DNA from: an uncultured Clostridia bacterium
Lineage (GTDB): Bacteria > Bacillota > Clostridia > Oscillospirales > Ruminococcaceae
Length of the DNA: 46,459 nucleotides
Assembly: GCA_947625615.1 (NCBI GenBank)
Contig: CANQPB010000018.1
Location: 1 to 46,459, forward strand
Reading direction: 5' to 3'
The notes beneath the pieces are model-generated. The model was not told the origin of the DNA. It saw only the letters and a list, made by a program, of their open reading frames with translations, and made no database searches. This document shows positions 2,207 through 41,093 of this stretch, piece after piece. The stretch's first letter is position 1. Every line of letters begins with the position of its first letter. The position numbers and the translations under genes are program-made.

Positions 2207-2244
2207 GGATAAATTCGCCGGCGTTTTGCCGCCAAAGGCAAAAT

Positions 2245-2276
2245 AAAAAAGTTTTCGCCGGCCTTTTTCAAAAGGC
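2245..2276 (+). repeat. R1-a, head fragment of the R1 hairpin repeat
   Basis: The 30-bp head of repeat R1 (AAAAGTTTTCGCCGG followed by the CCTTTTTCAAAAGG hairpin) is present without the rest of the element and runs straight into an R2 copy. The gene-free stretch 2145-2575 is made of this fragment, R2-a, a promoter and a terminator. Confidence 0.8.
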
Positions 2277-2283
2277 ATTTTAG

Positions 2284-6454: not shown

Positions 6455-7216
6455 TTATGATATGTTCAAAATGTTCAACGGTCTGCGGATAAAAAGCGCT
6501 TCTGCGGCCCTTAATCCGAACTTTTTCGCTACAAATTCATAGGTTTCGGCAAGATTCGGCTCGCCGCGGTGGCGCGAATGCCGGTCGTCGGCGACGGCGT
6601 CGATGAGCCCCTCCTCGACAAGGCGGAAGATGAGCTTTTTCTTCTGGCAGTCGAACGCCTCGGTATTTATCTGGAACTTCACGCCGAGGCTTTTCAGCTC
6701 CATGATATCCTCCGGCTCGGTCAGGCGGTCATACCTTTCTATATGTGCGAGCAGAGGGATCTTCCCGCCGGAGAGAAGCTTGACGACGTACATGCGCATG
6801 TCGGAATAGGGGGTGGTGGGGTGAAATTCGGTGAGAACCACCCTTGAATCGCCGAGGGGCTTGCAGCTGCGGTCGCGAAGGCGGTCGACGGTGTCGGGGC
6901 GCATGAAGACCTCGTTGCCGAGGTAGAGGTTCATATCGGGGAGGTTCTCGGCGCAGAACTGCCTTGCCTTTTCGAAGGATTCGGCAATTTTTTCCGGCTT
7001 CGGCTCGAAAAGCGCGGGATTGTAGTGCGGCGTGAAGCAGAGGTGGCGCACCCCGCATTCGTATTCATAGCCGATAAGGTCGAACATGTGCTCGTCGTCC
7101 GGCGCTCCGTCGTCTACGCCGGCGAGAATGTGGCAGTGAAGATCGCAAAGCCCCGCCGGGATCTCGATAGGCTCCTCCCGGTGCTGCTTTTTGTCCTGTT
7201 TTTTTCCGAATAGCAC
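6455..7216 (-). CDS. CpsB/CapC-type PHP-domain tyrosine phosphatase
   Basis: A 253-residue PHP-family metallophosphatase. Metal-ligand motifs are visible: LCDLHCHILAGVDDG (His27, His29), FTPHYNP, LTEFHP, LLAHIERY and ADDRHSRHRGEP near the C-terminus. CpsB enzymes use a manganese cluster to dephosphorylate the C-terminal tyrosines of the CpsD kinase, here encoded at 3921-4625. The start is GTG at 7216 with AGGAGG 11 bases upstream. The gene has its own promoter and is separated from the kinase pair by the NPKTG-protein gene, so phosphatase and kinase levels could be set independently. Confidence 0.9.
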   Translation of the reverse strand: MLFGKKQDKKQHREEPIEIPAGLCDLHCHILAGVDDGAPDDEHMFDLIGYEYECGVRHLCFTPHYNPALFEPKPEKIAESFEKARQFCAENLPDMNLYLGNEVFMRPDTVDRLRDRSCKPLGDSRVVLTEFHPTTPYSDMRMYVVKLLSGGKIPLLAHIERYDRLTEPEDIMELKSLGVKFQINTEAFDCQKKKLIFRLVEEGLIDAVADDRHSRHRGEPNLAETYEFVAKKFGLRAAEALFIRRPLNILNIS

Positions 7217-7289: not shown

Positions 7290-7334
7290 GGCGGGTGGGG
7301 GTTATTTTTGGGGGAGTTCCCCCAACCGAGCGAT

Positions 7335-7570
7335 AAAAAAGTTTTCGCCGGCCTTTTTCAAAAGGCCGCGAGAGTCCAGAGGCGAGTAGCCTCTGGCCGC
7401 GACCGCAGTCGCGGAATCCCCCGGAGCGGGCCGAGCAGGCACGCTCCGGGATAATGCGAAGCGAAGCGCAGGACGGGGAGAAAAAATCTGTCCTGTGGAC
7501 AGTTTTTTCGCGGGGAGACCCTCGCCGGGGGTCTCCCCGATTTGCCGAGTGAAATGAGGCAAATAAAAAA
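7335..7570 (+). repeat. R1-b, full copy of the modular hairpin repeat
   Basis: Modules in order: AAAAGTTTTCGCCGG head; CGGCCTTTT/AAAAGGCCG stem; CCAGAGGC/GCCTCTGG with loop GAGTA; CCGCGAC/GTCGCGG with loop CGCA; CCGGAGCG/CGCTCCGG with GAGCA in the loop; the GCGAAGCGAAGCGC motif; CTGTCC/GGACAG flanked by A6 and T6; GGGGAGACC/GGTCTCCCC; and a TTTGCC/GGCAAA closing stem. It lies between the divergent promoters of the PHP gene and the pyruvate oxidoreductase gene. Together with R2-b it fills most of the gene-free stretch 7290-7970; the remaining 7788-7970 shows nothing recognisable. Confidence 0.85.
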
Positions 7571-7615
7571 GTCGTCTCAATATCAAACGCTTTTTCAAAA
7601 ACAAGGGCTTTTTAT

Positions 7616-7787
7616 CTGTCTCACCCCCTGCCCCCTCTCCCTCGCGAAGGGAGAGGGGGTTCCACCCCGTCACCCGGCCGTTCACCTTGCGGCGAACGGC
7701 GCGACCCCTCCCCTCGAGGGGAGGGGTGTGTTCCCAAAGGCATGCTGCAAAATCGGCGCCGGGTTCGGCACTTTCGGTGCGGTGCTT
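7616..7787 (+). repeat. R2-b, copy of the R2 hairpin repeat
   Basis: Same module order as R2-a and R2-c with a few paired changes. It follows R1-b by 45 bp in the same direction, whereas R2-a abuts an R1 fragment and R2-c stands alone. Confidence 0.85.
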
Positions 7788-7970
7788 ATCGAAATTGCGA
7801 AACTATAACCCTGTGCTCCTGCAAATGCCAAGAAGACGCTCCTTTGCACAACAACCGTCACGGCGCCCGGAAAAGAACGCATCGCGAGGCAACCTCAGCC
7901 TTTCCTGCCAATATGTGGCAAGCGGCGGCGCTGCCTCGCCCTCTTGCAATAAAAATTCCCCCTCTACCCC

Positions 7971-8071: not shown

Positions 8072-11000
8072 ATGGCAAGAAAAATGAAAACCATGGACGG
8101 TAACAACGCTGCCGCTTGGGCGTCATATCCCTTTACGGAAGTAGCTGCTATCTATCCTATCACCCCCTCCTCGGTAATGGCCGAGGTCACCGACGCATGG
8201 TCGGCTAAGGGCCAGACCAACCTGTTCGGCACCCCCGTCAAGATCGCCGAGATGCAGTCCGAAGCGGGCGCCGCCGGCGCGGTTCACGGCTCGCTCTCCG
8301 CAGGCGCGCTCACCACCACCTACACCGCATCGCAGGGCCTTCTTCTGATGATCCCGAATATGTACAAGATCGCCGGCGAGCTTCTGCCGAACGTAATCCA
8401 CGTCTCGGCCAGATGCGTAGCCTCCCACGCTCTTAACATCTTCGGCGACCACTCCGACATCTATGCCTGCCGCCAGACCGGCTACGCAATGCTCTGCTCG
8501 ACCGACCCGCAGGAGGTCATGGATCTCGGCACCATCGCCCACCTCGCCACCATCAAGGCAAGAGTTCCTTTCCTTCACTTCTTCGACGGCTTCAGAACCT
8601 CCCACGAGATCCAGAAGATCGAGACCTGGGACAAGTCCGACATCGAGGAAATGATAGACTGGGACGCCGTAGAGGCCTTCAGAAACCGCTCTATCAATCC
8701 TGAACACCCCGTTCTTCGCGGCTCGGCTCAGAACCCCGACATCTTCTTCCAGGCTCGCGAGGCCTGCAACACCTACTACGACGCCGTCCCCGGCATCGTC
8801 GAGGAATACATGGACAAGGTCAACAAGAAGATCGGCACCAACTACAAGCTCTTCAACTACTACGGCGCTCCCGACGCCGAAAAGGTAATCATCGCCATGG
8901 GCTCCGTCTGCGACACCATTGAGGAGACCATAGACTACCTCAACGCCAAGGGCGAAAAGTTAGGCCTCGTCAAGGTAAGACTTTACAGGCCTTTCCGCGC
9001 CGACAAGCTTCTTGAGGCCATTCCGAAGACCGTAAAGATGATAAGCGTTCTTGACAGAACCAAGGAGCCCGGCTCGATGGGCGAGCCTCTGTTCCTCGAC
9101 GTAGTCGCCGCCCTCAAGGGCACCGAGCTCGAAACCGTCCCCGTTGCCTCGGGCAGATACGGCCTCGGCTCGAAGGACACCACCCCCGACCAGATCAAGG
9201 CCGTTTACGACAACTGCGCCTGCTGCAAGGACACCTACAAGCCCCGCTTCACCATCGGAATCAACGACGACGTAACCCACCTCTCCCTCGAATCCAAGGG
9301 CACCCTCGATTCCGCCCCCGCGGGAACCGTTTCCTGCAAGTTCTGGGGCCTCGGCTCCGACGGCACCGTCGGCGCCAATAAAAACTCCATCAAGATCATC
9401 GGCGACCACACCGACAAATACGTCCAGGCTTACTTCAGCTACGACTCCAAGAAGTCGGGCGGCGTAACCGTTTCCCACCTCAGATTCGGCGACACCCCCA
9501 TCAAGTCGACATACCTTATAAATAGGGCGGATTTCGTCGCCTGCCACAACGAGTCCTACATCACCAAGTACGACATGGTTCAGGACGTCAAGCCGGGCGG
9601 CACCTTCCTGCTCAACTGCCAGTGGACTCCCGAGGAGCTTGAGGAGAGACTTCCCGGCCAGGTAAAGAGATACATTGCCCAAAACAACGTCAAGTTCTAC
9701 ATCATCAACGGCGTAGAGATAGGCAAGAAGATCGGCCTCGGCTCAAGGATCAACACCGTTTTGCAGTCCGCATTCTTCAGCCTTGCTAAGATCATTCCGA
9801 TAGAGGACGCCGTAAAGTATATGAAGGACGCCGCGCTTGCCTCCTACGGCAAGAAGGGCGAGGCCGTCGTTAAGATGAACTACGACGCCATCGACGCCGG
9901 CTATAAGGAAGTCGTCGAGGTCAAGGTTCCCGAAGAGTGGAAGAACGCCCCCGACACCGCCATGGGCATGCCCGCCGCCACCGGCGACAACAAGACCCTT
10001 GTCGATTTCATCAATAAAGTACAGATCCCCTGCAACGCCCAGCACGGCGACGCCCTGCCGGTTTCCACCTTTGTTGAGACCGCCGACGGCACCTTCCCGC
10101 AGGGTTCCGCCGCATATGAAAAGCGCGGCATAGCCATCGACGTTCCCGCCTGGAACGGCGACAACTGCATTCAGTGCAACTTCTGCTCTTACGTCTGCCC
10201 GCACGCGGTTATCAGACCCGTCATTATGACCGACGCCGAGCTTGAGGCTGCCCCCGAGCTTGCAAAGCAGAAGGCAAAGCCCGTGACCGGCATGCCCGGC
10301 TATCACTTCGTTATGACGATGTCCGCCCTCGACTGCACCGGCTGCGGCTCCTGCGTGAACGTATGCCCGGGCAAGAAGGGCGAAAAGGCTCTGAACATGA
10401 GACCTTTAGACGAGCAGCTCGCCGAGCAGGAGGTATTCAACTACGCGCTCACCCTCGCCGACAAGCCCGAGGTTCACGAGAAATTCAAGGAAACCTCCGT
10501 CAAGGGCTCGCAGTTCAAGCAGCCGCTGCTTGAATTCTCCGGCGCATGCGCGGGCTGCGGCGAAACTCCTTACGCCAAGCTGATCACCCAGCTCTTCGGC
10601 GACAGAATGTACATCGCCAACGCCACCGGCTGCTCTTCTATCTGGGGCGGCTCGGCTCCCTCCACTCCTTACACCACCAACAAGCTCGGCAAGGGCCCGG
10701 CCTGGGCTAACTCCCTCTTTGAGGACAACGCCGAATACGGCTACGGCATGTTCCTTGCCCAAAACACCATTCGCACCCGCACCATCGCCAAGGTTCTTGA
10801 GCTTGTCAAGACCGTCGAATGCGAGCACTGCAAGGGTGTTATAGAGCACTACCTCGAGACCGTAGACAACGGCGCCGAGAATTCCAAGGCCACCGACGAG
10901 CTCATCGAAGTCCTCGAAAAGATGGATAAGCCGGAGGCAAAGGCTATCCTCAAGGATAAGGACTACCTGAGAAAGAAGAGCGTCTGGGTATTCGGCGGAG

Positions 11001-11620
11001 ACGGCTGGGCCTATGATATCGGCTTCGGCGGACTCGACCATGTTATCGCCCAGAACGAGGATATCAACATCTTCGTCTTCGACACCGAGGTTTACTCCAA
11101 CACCGGCGGACAGTCCTCGAAGGCCACCCCGACCGGCGCCATCGCGCAGTTTGCCGCCGCCGGCAAGGTTACCAAGAAGAAGGATCTCGCGGGAATCGCT
11201 ATGACCTACGGCTATGTATACGTCGCTCACGTTGCAATGGGCGCCGACTACAACCAGTGCATCAAGGCAATTGCCGAGGCCGAGAGCTATCACGGCCCGT
11301 CCCTCATCATAGGCTACGCGCCCTGCATCAACCACGGCATCAAGGGCGGCATGTCCATCGCCATGACCGAGGAGAAGAAGGCCGTCGAGGCAGGATACTG
11401 GCACCTTTACAGGTACGATCCGAGGCTCGCCGCCGAGGGCAAGAATCCGTTCCAGCTCGATTCCAAGGCTCCGACCGCCGACTACAAGGACTTCATCATG
11501 GGCGAGGTAAGATACAACTCGCTGGCGCGCTCCAACCCCGAGAGAGCAGAAAAGCTCTTCGCAAGCGCTGTGGAGAACGCGAAAGAGACCTATGACATGC
11601 TTGTAGAAAAGGCAAAATAA
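8072..11620 (+). CDS. nifJ: Pyruvate:ferredoxin (flavodoxin) oxidoreductase, single chain
   Basis: The 1182-residue enzyme oxidises pyruvate and CoA to acetyl-CoA and CO2, reducing ferredoxin: the central step of anaerobic sugar fermentation. All domains of the homodimeric form are present: the N-terminal pyrimidine-binding part with YPITPSSVMAE, the gamma region, two ferredoxin-type clusters CIQCNFCSYVCP (from about residue 699) and CTGCGSCVNVCP (from about 754), the proximal-cluster and thiamine region with CAGCGETPY (about 825) and GCSSIWGG, and the thiamine-diphosphate motif GDGWAYDIGFGG (about 976). AAGGAGG lies before ATG. Codon choice is strongly biased (AAG, GAC, ATC, AAC), as expected for an abundant protein. 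It is monocistronic and points toward the origin. Confidence 0.97.
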   Translation: MARKMKTMDGNNAAAWASYPFTEVAAIYPITPSSVMAEVTDAWSAKGQTNLFGTPVKIAEMQSEAGAAGAVHGSLSAGALTTTYTASQGLLLMIPNMYKIAGELLPNVIHVSARCVASHALNIFGDHSDIYACRQTGYAMLCSTDPQEVMDLGTIAHLATIKARVPFLHFFDGFRTSHEIQKIETWDKSDIEEMIDWDAVEAFRNRSINPEHPVLRGSAQNPDIFFQAREACNTYYDAVPGIVEEYMDKVNKKIGTNYKLFNYYGAPDAEKVIIAMGSVCDTIEETIDYLNAKGEKLGLVKVRLYRPFRADKLLEAIPKTVKMISVLDRTKEPGSMGEPLFLDVVAALKGTELETVPVASGRYGLGSKDTTPDQIKAVYDNCACCKDTYKPRFTIGINDDVTHLSLESKGTLDSAPAGTVSCKFWGLGSDGTVGANKNSIKIIGDHTDKYVQAYFSYDSKKSGGVTVSHLRFGDTPIKSTYLINRADFVACHNESYITKYDMVQDVKPGGTFLLNCQWTPEELEERLPGQVKRYIAQNNVKFYIINGVEIGKKIGLGSRINTVLQSAFFSLAKIIPIEDAVKYMKDAALASYGKKGEAVVKMNYDAIDAGYKEVVEVKVPEEWKNAPDTAMGMPAATGDNKTLVDFINKVQIPCNAQHGDALPVSTFVETADGTFPQGSAAYEKRGIAIDVPAWNGDNCIQCNFCSYVCPHAVIRPVIMTDAELEAAPELAKQKAKPVTGMPGYHFVMTMSALDCTGCGSCVNVCPGKKGEKALNMRPLDEQLAEQEVFNYALTLADKPEVHEKFKETSVKGSQFKQPLLEFSGACAGCGETPYAKLITQLFGDRMYIANATGCSSIWGGSAPSTPYTTNKLGKGPAWANSLFEDNAEYGYGMFLAQNTIRTRTIAKVLELVKTVECEHCKGVIEHYLETVDNGAENSKATDELIEVLEKMDKPEAKAILKDKDYLRKKSVWVFGGDGWAYDIGFGGLDHVIAQNEDINIFVFDTEVYSNTGGQSSKATPTGAIAQFAAAGKVTKKKDLAGIAMTYGYVYVAHVAMGADYNQCIKAIAEAESYHGPSLIIGYAPCINHGIKGGMSIAMTEEKKAVEAGYWHLYRYDPRLAAEGKNPFQLDSKAPTADYKDFIMGEVRYNSLARSNPERAEKLFASAVENAKETYDMLVEKAK

Positions 11621-11674: not shown

Positions 11675-11731
11675 GTTGTTCGGCGGGGAAGTGCCTCTAC
11701 ACTCCTTTTTATAGGGGCGTTTGATTTTTTG

Positions 11732-11903
11732 CCTGTCTCACCCCCTGCCCCCTCTCCCTCGCGGAGGGAGAGGGGGTTCCACCCCGTCACCCGGCCGTTC
11801 ACCTTGCGGCGAACGGCGCGACCCCTCCCCTCAAGGGGAGGGGTGTGTTCCCAAAGGCTTTCTGCTATGTTGAAGCTTGTCGAGGCACTTTTGGTGCGGT
11901 GCT
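11732..11903 (+). repeat. R2-c, stand-alone copy of the R2 hairpin repeat
   Basis: Third R2 copy, not next to an R1 element. The first stem reads CCCCCTCTCCCTC/GGAGGGAGAGGGGG with a shorter loop, and the third stem has loop TCAA where the others have TCGA. It fills much of the gap between the pyruvate oxidoreductase and CotH genes. Confidence 0.85.
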
Positions 11904-11991
11904 GCCCGAAATGCTCTTTTCCGGCTTTCATTTAACCGCATACTTTTTATTTCGCAAATTTTTCTATCTTCTATCCTCTAATTTCTATCCT

Positions 11992-20287: not shown

Positions 20288-20438
20288 TTAGGTTTTCACC
20301 ACCCATGTGTTGAATTTTTGCCCCGAAATTAAAATCAAAAATCCCTTTTCATGAGAAAAGGGACATGGAAAATCATGTATATCCTTTCCTCGGCAGGACT
20401 TACGCACTTACGGGCGCCTGCTGTCTTAAGATCGGTGC
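20288..20438 (-). promoter_or_regulatory. Ribosomal protein L10 leader
   Basis: The rplJ transcript starts with about 150 untranslated bases carrying CTTAAGACAGCAGGCG and CCTGCCGAGGAAAGG, the conserved parts of the Firmicutes L10 leader that bind the L10(L12) complex. A terminator hairpin follows (20343-20362: CCCTTTTC/GAAAAGGG, loop TCAT, then ATTTTTGATTTTAATTT on the minus strand), so binding probably decides between termination and read-through into rplJ. Confidence 0.88.
20325..20362 (-). terminator. Attenuator hairpin of the L10 leader
   Basis: Eight perfect pairs, CCCTTTTC with GAAAAGGG, loop TCAT, followed by a T-rich tail before the rplJ ribosome site. Confidence 0.85.
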
Positions 20439-20445
20439 GAGGGTT

Positions 20446-20474
20446 ATTATAGCACACCGCCGCTCGGCTGTCAA
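20446..20474 (-). promoter_or_regulatory. Promoter of rplJ-rplL
   Basis: Minus-strand TTGACA (20474-20469), 17-bp spacer and TATAAT (20451-20446): a consensus promoter, fitting a highly expressed operon. Confidence 0.9.
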
Positions 20475-20493
20475 GGGGTTTGAGAGTGGAAAA

Positions 20494-20780
20494 TTAAAAA
20501 GTTTTCGCCGGCCTTTTTCAAAAGGCCGCGGGGGTCGAGGGGCGAGTAGCCCCTCGTCGCAGCCCGCTGGCTGCGAAATCCTATGCTTCGCGCGCTCCGC
20601 AAGGGGTGAATTGCAAAAACAGTCCACCGGACTGTTTTTGCAAGAGGGGACGCCCTGCAAGAGGGCGTCCCCTTTGTGCGGCGCGGCGGCTTGACCGACG
20701 CGTCGCAGCCCGGAAAAGGGCGCGGGGAAAACCTCGCCGGGGTTTTCCCCGCTTTGCCGAGCGTAAGCGAGGCAAACAAA
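20494..20780 (+). repeat. R1-c, divergent copy of the modular hairpin repeat
   Basis: Head as in R1-b, then CGAGGGGC/GCCCCTCG with loop GAGTA, CGCAGCC/GGCTGCG with loop CGCT, a 15-bp stem ending ACAGTCC-ACC-GGACTGT, GGGGACGCCC/GGGCGTCCCC, GGGGAAAACC/GGTTTTCCCC with loop TCGCCG, and the TTTGCC/GGCAAA closing stem. The CCGGAGCG module is missing. It lies 20 bp behind the rplJ -35 element and 62 bp before the -35 of the VTC operon, which points the other way. The gap 20475-20841 holds nothing else. Confidence 0.85.
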
Positions 20781-22300: not shown

Positions 22301-22963
22301 ATGCAATCTATCCGTTCAGTCCTACGCGAATCTATCGAGCAGCTCGGCCTCGTCGAGCATTTAACCGTCGCCTACATACTGGTGTCGCTTCTCTGCGCCG
22401 CCGTCTGCGGGCTGATAATCTACCTGGTCTACAAATTCTTCTACCGCGGCGCGGTCTACAGCGAAAACTTCGCGGTGCTTATCGTCATGACGACGGTCGT
22501 CACGGCGTTCATAGTCATCACGATAGGCTCTAACCTCGTTCTGTCGCTCGGTATGGTCGGTGCGCTGTCGATAGTCAGGTTCCGCTCCGCCGTCAAGGAT
22601 CCTTTGGACGTAGGCTTTCTTTTCTGGGGGATCGCCGTGGGCATCACCGCCGGCGCGGGGCTTTATCCTTTCGCGCTTATCGCCACCGCCGCGATATCTC
22701 TTTTATACATTCTCTTCACCGTCTGCGGGCGGGGCAGAAGGACGTTTGTCATAGTTATCAAATATGAAGACGCCGCCGAGTCCGCCTTGGAGGAAGTCCT
22801 GAAAACGGCACACGGCCGCATGCGGGGCAAAGCGAAGTATAAGGGCGAAAACGAGCTGACCGCCGACGTGAGATATTCAAAGAAAAACGCCGACATTCTC
22901 GCGAAGATCACGGCCGTCGAGGGCGTGACAAGCGCCGTGATGGTGGAATACACCGGCGAGTGA
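22301..22963 (+). CDS. DUF4956 membrane protein
   Basis: A 220-residue protein with about four membrane helices (about 23-46, 57-84, 102-118, 121-140) and a cytoplasmic C-terminal ferredoxin-like domain (about 148-220). The signature ALSIVRFRSAVKDPLDV (88-104) identifies DUF4956; the arrangement recalls MgtC-like proteins with a C-terminal small-molecule-binding domain. The family is commonly encoded with VTC-domain proteins, as here, and may form the membrane part of a polyphosphate or phosphate-related system; this role is inference. AAAGGAAC precedes ATG. Confidence 0.83.
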   Translation: MQSIRSVLRESIEQLGLVEHLTVAYILVSLLCAAVCGLIIYLVYKFFYRGAVYSENFAVLIVMTTVVTAFIVITIGSNLVLSLGMVGALSIVRFRSAVKDPLDVGFLFWGIAVGITAGAGLYPFALIATAAISLLYILFTVCGRGRRTFVIVIKYEDAAESALEEVLKTAHGRMRGKAKYKGENELTADVRYSKKNADILAKITAVEGVTSAVMVEYTGE

Positions 22964-22981: not shown

Positions 22982-23010
22982 CCCTCTCCCGCTTGGGAGG
23001 GGGAGTTTTG
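22982..23010 (+). terminator. Terminator of the VTC-DUF4956 operon
   Basis: CCCTCTCCC and GGGAGGGGG pair around GCTT, followed by AGTTTTG. Confidence 0.65.
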
Positions 23011-23015
23011 TTAGG

Positions 23016-23270
23016 AAAGTTTTCGGTCAAGCCTTTTTCAAAAGGCTTGCGCAGTCGAGGGGCGCGCAGCCCCTCGTCGCGCTCCGCAGAGCGCGAAATC
23101 TCCCCGGAGCGGGCCGAGCAGGCGCGCTCCGGCTAATGCGAAGCAAAGCGCAGGACGGGGAGAAAAAACTGTCCGGTGGACAGTTTTTTCGCGGGGAGAC
23201 CCTCGCCGGGGGTCTCCCCGGCGAGGCGCCTGCGGCGCCTCGCACACGGAAAGGGGTATGGGGAAAACTT
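23016..23270 (+). repeat. R1-d, full copy of the modular hairpin repeat
   Basis: Its first stem is AAGCCTTTT/AAAAGGCTT (CGGCCTTTT/AAAAGGCCG in copies b, c and e), its second CGAGGGGC/GCCCCTCG with loop GCGCA, its third CGCGCTC/GAGCGCG with loop CGCA. The CCGGAGCG, A6-CTGTCC-GGT-GGACAG-T6, GGGGAGACC and GAGGCGCC-TGC-GGCGCCTC modules follow. It lies in the convergent gap between the DUF4956 gene and gyrA. The 361-bp gap holds this repeat and two flanking hairpins. Confidence 0.85.
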
Positions 23271-23284
23271 TTTCACTTAAACTA

Positions 23285-40643: not shown

Positions 40644-40651
40644 TAAGTTAG

Positions 40652-40950
40652 AAAAGTTTTCGCCGGCCTTTTTCAAAAGGCCGCAGGGGACTCGGGGGCG
40701 GAGCCCACGAGCCGCGATCGCAATCGCGGAATCTCCCCGGAGGACGCCGAGCAGGCGTCCTCCGGATAATGCGAAGCGAAGCGCAGGACGGGGAGAAAAA
40801 ACTGTCCGGTGGACAGTTTTTTCGCGGGGAGACCCTCGCCGGGGGTCTCCCCGGCGAGGCGCCTACGGCACCTCGCATGCGGAAAGGGGCTATGGGGGAA
40901 ACCTTGTTAAGGGTTTCCCCCAATTTGCCGAGCGAAGCGAGGCAAATAAA
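40652..40950 (+). repeat. R1-e, full copy of the modular hairpin repeat
   Basis: The longest copy: CGGCCTTTT stem; CTCGGGGGC/GCCCACGAG; CCGCGAT/ATCGCGG with loop CGCA; a perfect 12-bp CCGGAGGACGCC stem with loop GAGCA; A6-CTGTCC-GGT-GGACAG-T6; GGGGAGACC; GAGGCGCC with TAC; GGGGGAAACC/GGTTTCCCCC; and ATTTGCC/GGCAAAT. It lies between rsmG and noc. The rest of 40951-41093 shows no feature. Confidence 0.87.
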
Positions 40951-41093
40951 AAGGCTTGACCTAAAACTTTTGTCACAAAATTTCCCCCAAAATTTGCTCA
41001 AATCCCCCAAAAAATCCTGCCGGATTCCGCCGTATTCGCTCACACCCGCGCAGTTTTTTGCGCACTCTGTCGGAATCGGGCGGAAAAAATATC

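Follow-up and report, generated by a model that had tools for sequence, protein, structure and literature searches.

The window analysed here is the whole 46,459-nucleotide stretch of contig CANQPB010000018.1 (assembly GCA_947625615.1), from an uncultured Clostridia bacterium of the Ruminococcaceae, and it carries several copies of a multi-hairpin repeat that we call R1 (Table 1). Matches starting at 7338, 20498, 23016 and 40653, together with a head fragment at 2249, bear out the four full copies and the fragment described in an earlier sequence-only reading of this DNA. The inverted copy that it also listed is indeed R1 sequence on the minus strand, but proved to be a 3' fragment cut by the contig end. 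Of the two subtypes described below, the 20494 copy is type B and the other three full copies are type A. The ribosomal protein L10 leader (20327-20448, minus strand) is the single Rfam match in the window, and the type B copy starts about 20 bases upstream of a promoter-like site for this leader. A second dispersed repeat of about 187 nt, D2, occupies 2278-2464, 7609-7795 and 11726-11912; it adjoins several R1 copies at their 3' ends and directly follows the solo head at 2249. Positions 1-645 hold 9-nt-step repeats starting GGN within an open frame at the contig start, presumably a collagen-like coding repeat.

Table 1. R1 copies in the window and the component parts of the 40652 copy.
Feature	Position	Strand	Basis
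R1 copy under study	~40645-40957, plus partial inverted head to 40971	+	sequence, folding
A-rich 5' edge of the 40652 copy	40645..40655	+	motif common to 71 heads
Head GTTTTCG and hairpin H1 (H1 at 40664-40683)	40656..40683	+	folding; covarying helix 1
Hairpin H2	40691..40711	+	folding; covarying helix 2
Hairpin H3, CGCA loop	40712..40729	+	folding; covarying helix 3
Hairpin H4, a module absent from many relatives' copies (by eye)	40737..40765	+	folding
Conserved motif AAGCGCAGGA and G-rich linker	40779..40794	+	start of model R1
Hairpin H5, between A tract and T tract	40795..40823	+	folding; H5-H6 covariation
Hairpin H6	40825..40853	+	folding; H5-H6 covariation
Hairpin H7	40854..40876	+	folding
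Hairpin H8	40893..40922	+	folding
Hairpin H9, near the end of many long copies (GGCAAATAAAA; others by eye)	40923..40947	+	folding
Partial inverted head, right end of the 40652 copy	40948..40971	-	read from sequence
Type A copy between divergent genes 6455-7216 and 8072-11620	7330..7570	+	
Type B copy, upstream of promoter-like site and L10 leader	20490..20780	+	
Type A copy between convergent genes 22301-22963 and gyrA	23008..23275	+	
Solo head fragment, immediately followed by D2 (187-nt repeat)	2240..2277	+	
3' fragment of an R1 copy, cut by the contig end	46393..46459	-	

The 40652 copy consists of nine hairpins in series, with conserved unpaired motifs; H2 is imperfectly paired in this copy. 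Positions 40645-40960 fold far below shuffled sequences both as RNA (z -9.6) and as single-stranded DNA (z -10.7), and RNA folding of 20494-20775 gives a z of -13.0. The AAGCGCAGGA motif is conserved, with columns 2-10 of alignment A1 mostly at least 90% identical. H5 looks like a putative two-way intrinsic terminator; terminator pattern scans reported neither H5 nor the other R1 hairpins. Partial inverted heads like that at the right end of the 40652 copy are also found at two further copies (C45 and C53), making three in this genome. The stem variants quoted earlier for modules 1-3 read as claimed, and the module order is fixed as proposed, although the later modules that are present differ among copies: the 7338 copy passes from H6 directly to H9, and the 23016 copy ends within H8. 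The comparison drawn for module 7 does not stand, since the GGGGAAAACC hairpin of the 20494 copy lies at a later position and this copy, being of subtype B, has other central modules.

Within 300,685 bases around matches in the same genome we identified 76 R1 elements or fragments spanning 41-478 bp (middle half 204-302), eight of which score under 50 bits. A DNA search of the genome returned at least 98 matching pieces from the best 40 of 133 candidates scored. The covariance model of the central hairpins returned at least 80 rows from 150 of 1777 candidates scored, at least 38 of them at 73 bits or more and at least 27 between 35 and 54 bits. Seventy-two of the 76 elements are intergenic or overlap a called gene by at most 60 bases. 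The remaining four overlap by more than 60 bases: two at an apparent gene start, one (14.5 bits) within a gene and one within a frame whose coding score is low. Types A and B have the head and H1-H3 in common. Downstream of these, type A continues with AAGCGCAGGA, H5 and an H6 with a CCTCGCCGGGG loop, and type B with a CTCCGCAAGGGGTGAATT linker, H5 and a distinct H6. The label records the better-scoring query, and one B-labelled copy (C17:15864) has a type A core.

In an alignment of 48 copies from this genome, the stems of H1, H2 and H3 fall into roughly three types per hairpin, apart from a few left unclassified; these types reassort with one another and with both central types; modules have therefore been exchanged among copies. 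The nearest neighbour comes from the same genome for 58 of 88 sequences, which we read as partial homogenisation. Two kinds of additional module were also seen. An extra module of about 95 nt (length by eye), with ends GCAAGC-GGTTTTGT and ACAAAACCCCGCGTGCAT, sits between H1 and H2 at two loci of this genome (L008 and L017) and at one of another species (L052), so that two species share this kind of insert. A module GCAGCGCAACGCAAAA...TTTCGCGTTGCGC stands in place of part of H2-H3 at L026, L027 and L030 of this genome and at L031 of genome G007.

The 5' boundary of the element is abrupt. An alignment of 71 heads shows the A-rich motif from -11 to -1 before a conserved G, and immediately outside it (-12 to -20) the information is at most 0.08 bits per position. 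We considered whether the motif reflects a target-site preference or a neighbouring promoter. The A-rich edge recurs at both ends of the two-ended relatives described below, and both ideas were dropped for this reason. The 3' end is less uniform by eye: many long copies stop near GGCAAATAAAA, several short type B copies end just past H6, and some enter D2. No target-site duplication was seen by eye among copies of this genome, the two-ended relatives or the G125/G178 site discussed below. Several R1 matches among the listed contigs lie near the ends of contigs or of retrieved stretches, which suggests that short-read assemblies may break at R1.

Searches beyond this genome, including the covariance-model search that the sequence-only reading had proposed, found R1 to be spread patchily, in many copies, among relatives as well. 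Within the genus, 13 of 31 genomes match the H6 loop pattern exactly (34 times in the own genome, 61 times in one relative), and the reversed control matched in none of the 31. Among the matches listed, the carriers are metagenome-assembled Clostridia and Oscillospiraceae, from samples that include goat gut and 'Lapin'. Across the order, the H1-H3 covariance model matched 57 of 295 genomes, which represent 37 of 148 genera, often in multiple copies; up to 15 candidates were scored per genome, so that copy numbers per genome are lower bounds. The loops, spacing and order of H1-H3 are kept over these 37 genera, and the stem letters vary. A class-wide search with the same model matched 21 of 391 genomes, including ten that do not belong to the order. 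Matches in G474, one of these ten, are strong and multi-copy; the scores of the remaining nine stay under 57 bits, and these may represent hairpin arrays of another kind.

Applied to 100 loci, the H1-H3 model gave 141 matches. Neighbouring blocks within 1 kb of each other formed 23 inward-facing pairs, two of them the same place retrieved twice, against six tandem and two divergent pairs. Twenty-one of the 23 inward pairs span 233-692 bp; the two widest, L279 and L311, enclose open frames of 89 and 170 aa. Such an arrangement of inward-facing end blocks is that of a miniature inverted-repeat element. The left and right blocks of the two-ended relatives have the same layout and different stem letters, and one such 353-base stretch folds at a z of -12.0. 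By eye, the sequences in families f13 and f1 (genus g18) have inverted heads at both ends, and copies in g18 have a longer outer edge in common. In the own genome no inverted pair was found at 60 loci, apart from the partial inverted heads at three copies, which fits the copies there being one-ended, module-swapping derivatives of the two-ended form. Five wider inverted pairs (700-6000 bp) at the retrieved loci enclose open frames of 96-461 aa; these were considered as a possible autonomous partner and set aside, as by eye the frames do not look like transposases.

G178 has an empty site where G125 carries an R1-family copy; the flanking stretches of 173 and 1242 nt are 95% and 90% identical, respectively. 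The comparison of filled and empty sites, also suggested earlier, thus yielded one example, but it is not clean: within the 514-bp insert in G125 the R1 part is flanked on either side by other DNA, a third species (G061) has other DNA at the site, and loss in G178 is therefore possible. At another site G178 and G061 both carry an R1-family copy, which shows that copies can be retained in place. By eye, the spacer between rsmG and noc, which contains R1 in the own genome, lacks it in the nine relatives with a readable spacer among 15 tried. In three rsmG-noc spacers (L216, L219 and L221, from G003, G011 and G005) a different inverted repeat lies in R1's place. Two other ideas were considered and rejected. 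The reverse transcriptase profile RVT_1 was found in 10 of the 31 genus genomes (seven over the cut-off) and at two places in the own genome, and its distribution (6/13 carriers versus 4/18 non-carriers) is not significant. A virus or plasmid origin found no match in viral contigs (exact pattern) or in phages or plasmids (blastn).

The position of R1 relative to genes, judged from our codon-usage gene calls, differs between the subtypes. Among elements of at least 50 bits (eight of the 76 were excluded), the upstream gene of type A reads toward the 5' end in 19 of 43 cases, as by chance. Where both neighbours were called, the 37 type A spacers comprise 12 divergent, 9 convergent and 16 tandem ones, against 32%, 23% and 45% of spacer bases; type A is thus distributed in proportion to spacer length. 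For type B the upstream gene reads toward the element in 18 of 21 cases (binomial 0.0007; Fisher A versus B 0.0026), 15 of the 18 lying within 50 bases of the stop codon, and omission of the mixed copy C17:15864 leaves 17/20. In other families of the order, 66 matches were examined and 45 of 63 upstream genes read toward the element (two-sided p 0.0009). This bias is uneven: it amounts to 23/25 in G140, G154, G257 and G294, 2/7 in G120 and 4/9 in G061. By eye, several copies have a T run along with a GC-rich hairpin. Type B copies were probably retained at gene ends in the sense orientation, where they would form the 3' untranslated region and a terminator.

We scored covariation against shuffled and slid alignments. 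Alignment A1 was built from 177 core matches, which gave 121 distinct full-length sequences, 64 at less than 93% identity and 58 that were used; for the end blocks, 92 distinct sequences were thinned to 34, of which 29 entered A2 and the 18 with equal H3 length entered A3. In H1-H3 (18 sequences), 92.6% of cells pair, versus 79.3% in shuffles, and 15 of 25 pairs are changed on both sides. None of 500 shuffles reached either value, and two reached the observed further pair types. Sliding the partner by one base lowers pairing to 43-55%. In H5-H6 (52 distinct sequences), 98.8% of cells pair versus 89.9% in shuffles and 10 of 22 pairs are changed on both sides (0/500 shuffles); further pair types are not above shuffles there (337/500). 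Per covariation test, four of five measures were reached by none of 500 shuffles, a statistic that ignores shared ancestry. Covariation is strong and extends over many lineages once other species are added; within the own genome it comes down to the three or so reassorting types per hairpin, which represent few independent events.

We then considered whether the stems behave as RNA or as DNA. On the order-wide model-based alignment (2727 cells), 2638 cells are Watson-Crick, 28 G-U, 15 A-C and 46 other, and 600 are doubly changed; the own-genome counterpart has 1468 Watson-Crick, 18 G-U, 18 A-C and 69 other cells. G-U pairs make up about 1% of R1 paired cells versus 6.8% (21/311) in 15 tRNAs from the same set of loci. 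Alignments on the RNAalifold structure, which is chosen so as to allow G-U, gave 42 G-U versus 9 A-C cells for type A and 6 versus 4 for type B. The low G-U share favours a DNA-level palindrome over a strand-specific RNA, with the type A alignment dissenting. On balance, the stems act as nearly strict palindromes, which fits a DNA-level constraint or correction better than selection on one RNA strand. Rfam 15 placed no family at its gathering threshold on R1 in the window or at 20 relatives' loci, where the L10 leader was the only match in the window and in one relative locus. Permissive scans of two R1 copies gave sub-threshold matches throughout, the best being RNAI at 31 of 47 bits.

Taken together, we consider it likely that R1 represents an undescribed family of MITE-like, non-autonomous elements built of multiple hairpins, with one-ended copies in the own genome and type B partly kept as gene ends. 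Of the three guesses in the sequence-only reading, a non-autonomous mobile hairpin element is the one best supported, by dispersal, the sharp 5' edge, the two-ended inverted relatives and species-specific occupancy. A structured RNA was another, and the corresponding alternative is that R1 is primarily a cis-acting gene-end RNA, a multi-hairpin 3' untranslated region and terminator under selection in the transcript, with dispersal as a by-product. The orientation and proximity of type B to stop codons, the bias in other families, the hairpins with T runs and the G-U excess in the RNAalifold alignment of type A would all be expected of such an RNA. Type A, the kind to which the 40652 copy belongs, is however unbiased, G-U and A-C cells are equal in the own-genome model-based alignment and 28 versus 15 across the order, the G-U share lies below that of tRNAs, and Rfam offers no family. 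We regard this alternative as unlikely, and strand-specific RNA structure as the less favoured main constraint. The third guess, a chromosome-organising site, here extended to gyrase binding, could draw on the dispersal of the copies and on two window copies that adjoin gyrA and noc, but 18 of the 31 genus genomes lack an exact-pattern match, and we give it very little credence.

A different question is whether pairing could be kept without selection. Hairpin-templated correction during replication would copy one arm onto the other, and exchange between copies would spread the change. This fits the 600 doubly changed cells against 28 G-U cells, nearly all Watson-Crick, and the few, reassorting stem types of the own genome. 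The earlier statement that covariation implies selection was too strong, because correction could produce the same pattern. Correction alone leaves the loops, spacing and order kept over 37 genera unexplained, and we hold the idea tentatively, as a possibility of somewhat less than even weight. Were it to account for the covariation, the covariation would be uninformative on function; mobility would be unaffected, and the two readings do not compete. As to the enzyme involved, R1 might be a REP/BIME-type or other repeat moved by a Y1 (RAYT or IS200-type) transposase. It is intergenic, palindromic, mosaic and multi-copy like the BIMEs in the accessible part of PMC2817692, and Y1_Tnp is found in 7 of 13 carriers versus 1 of 18 non-carriers in the genus (Fisher 0.004). 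The carriers seem related, so this association is not independent and may reflect shared ancestry. Y1_Tnp, the one transposase family searched, had no match in the many-copy own genome; ten Y1 loci elsewhere are not bounded by R1 heads, two of them holding one head-like match; and the R1 head is not of the GTAG type given in that part of PMC2817692. A Y1-moved repeat is accordingly improbable.

The mobile-element reading suggests the following mechanism. The two-ended form, mostly 233-692 bp, carries an inverted end block at each end, composed of the A-rich edge, the GTTTTCG head and H1-H3 with kept loops and spacing and variable stem letters, around a middle of terminator-like hairpins. A putative trans-acting enzyme would identify the ends by their hairpin shape, probably in the form of folded single strands, and would copy or transfer the elements into intergenic DNA. 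In the own genome, one-ended derivatives would have multiplied and swapped modules, and type B copies would have been kept just downstream of genes in sense, probably as 3' untranslated region and terminator. Near-strict Watson-Crick covariation together with the kept loops predicts that the ends are recognised as folded DNA. A more far-reaching version, which is speculative and in our estimate doubtful, is that R1 is mobile DNA addressed by shape: the enzyme would read the loops, spacing and order of H1-H3 as folded DNA, unlike sequences in dozens of genera would serve one kind of enzyme, and the inner hairpins would be co-opted by hosts to mark gene ends. With a shape-reading enzyme, the stem sequence would be free to change as long as pairing holds. 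If the mobile-element reading is true, a group of Clostridia known mainly from assembled metagenomes carries an undescribed family of structured repeats, one that has become dispersed across an order and influences gene ends, and intergenic DNA that has no Rfam 15 entry gains a name.

The earlier impression that R1 fits no recognised repeat family agrees with the Rfam results and with our search of the open-licence PubMed Central literature, in which sequence strings returned no paper and none of the titles and abstract openings listed by topic described the family. Three known systems offer comparisons. Like REP/BIME sequences, for which the accessible part of PMC2817692 reports modified REPs that retain palindromes, R1 is palindromic, intergenic and mosaic, and Y1 is commoner in genus carriers; unlike them, as far as that text describes them, it has no Y1 match in its own genome, lacks a GTAG-type head and consists of unlike hairpins in a set order. 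Like MITEs, R1 is small, non-coding, intergenic, multi-copy and highly paired, with two-ended inverted forms in relatives (PMC10969869, in part). MITEs are described there as typically AT-rich, whereas the G+C content of the R1 end block ranges from 0.50 to 0.68 across all 61 matches in the own genome that score above 60 bits, and R1 differs further in showing no duplication by eye and in being one-ended in the own genome; the transposase search, made with the Y1_Tnp profile, found no parent insertion sequence. The third comparison is with the repeats of Streptococcus pneumoniae. In the accessible part of PMC3049150, BOX has a modular build, with modules at its ends and inner ones that vary in number, and BOX, RUP and SPRITE are short dispersed repeats with predicted stem-loop RNAs, SPRITE resembling a rho-independent terminator. 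R1 is likewise a short, dispersed, modular Bacillota repeat with stem-loops and a terminator-like part. It is set apart from BOX, compared by layout description rather than by alignment, by an end block of three covarying hairpins with lineage-specific stem letters that occurs in 37 of 148 genera, and from BOX, RUP and SPRITE as portrayed in that text by terminator-like hairpins carried within the same modular element.
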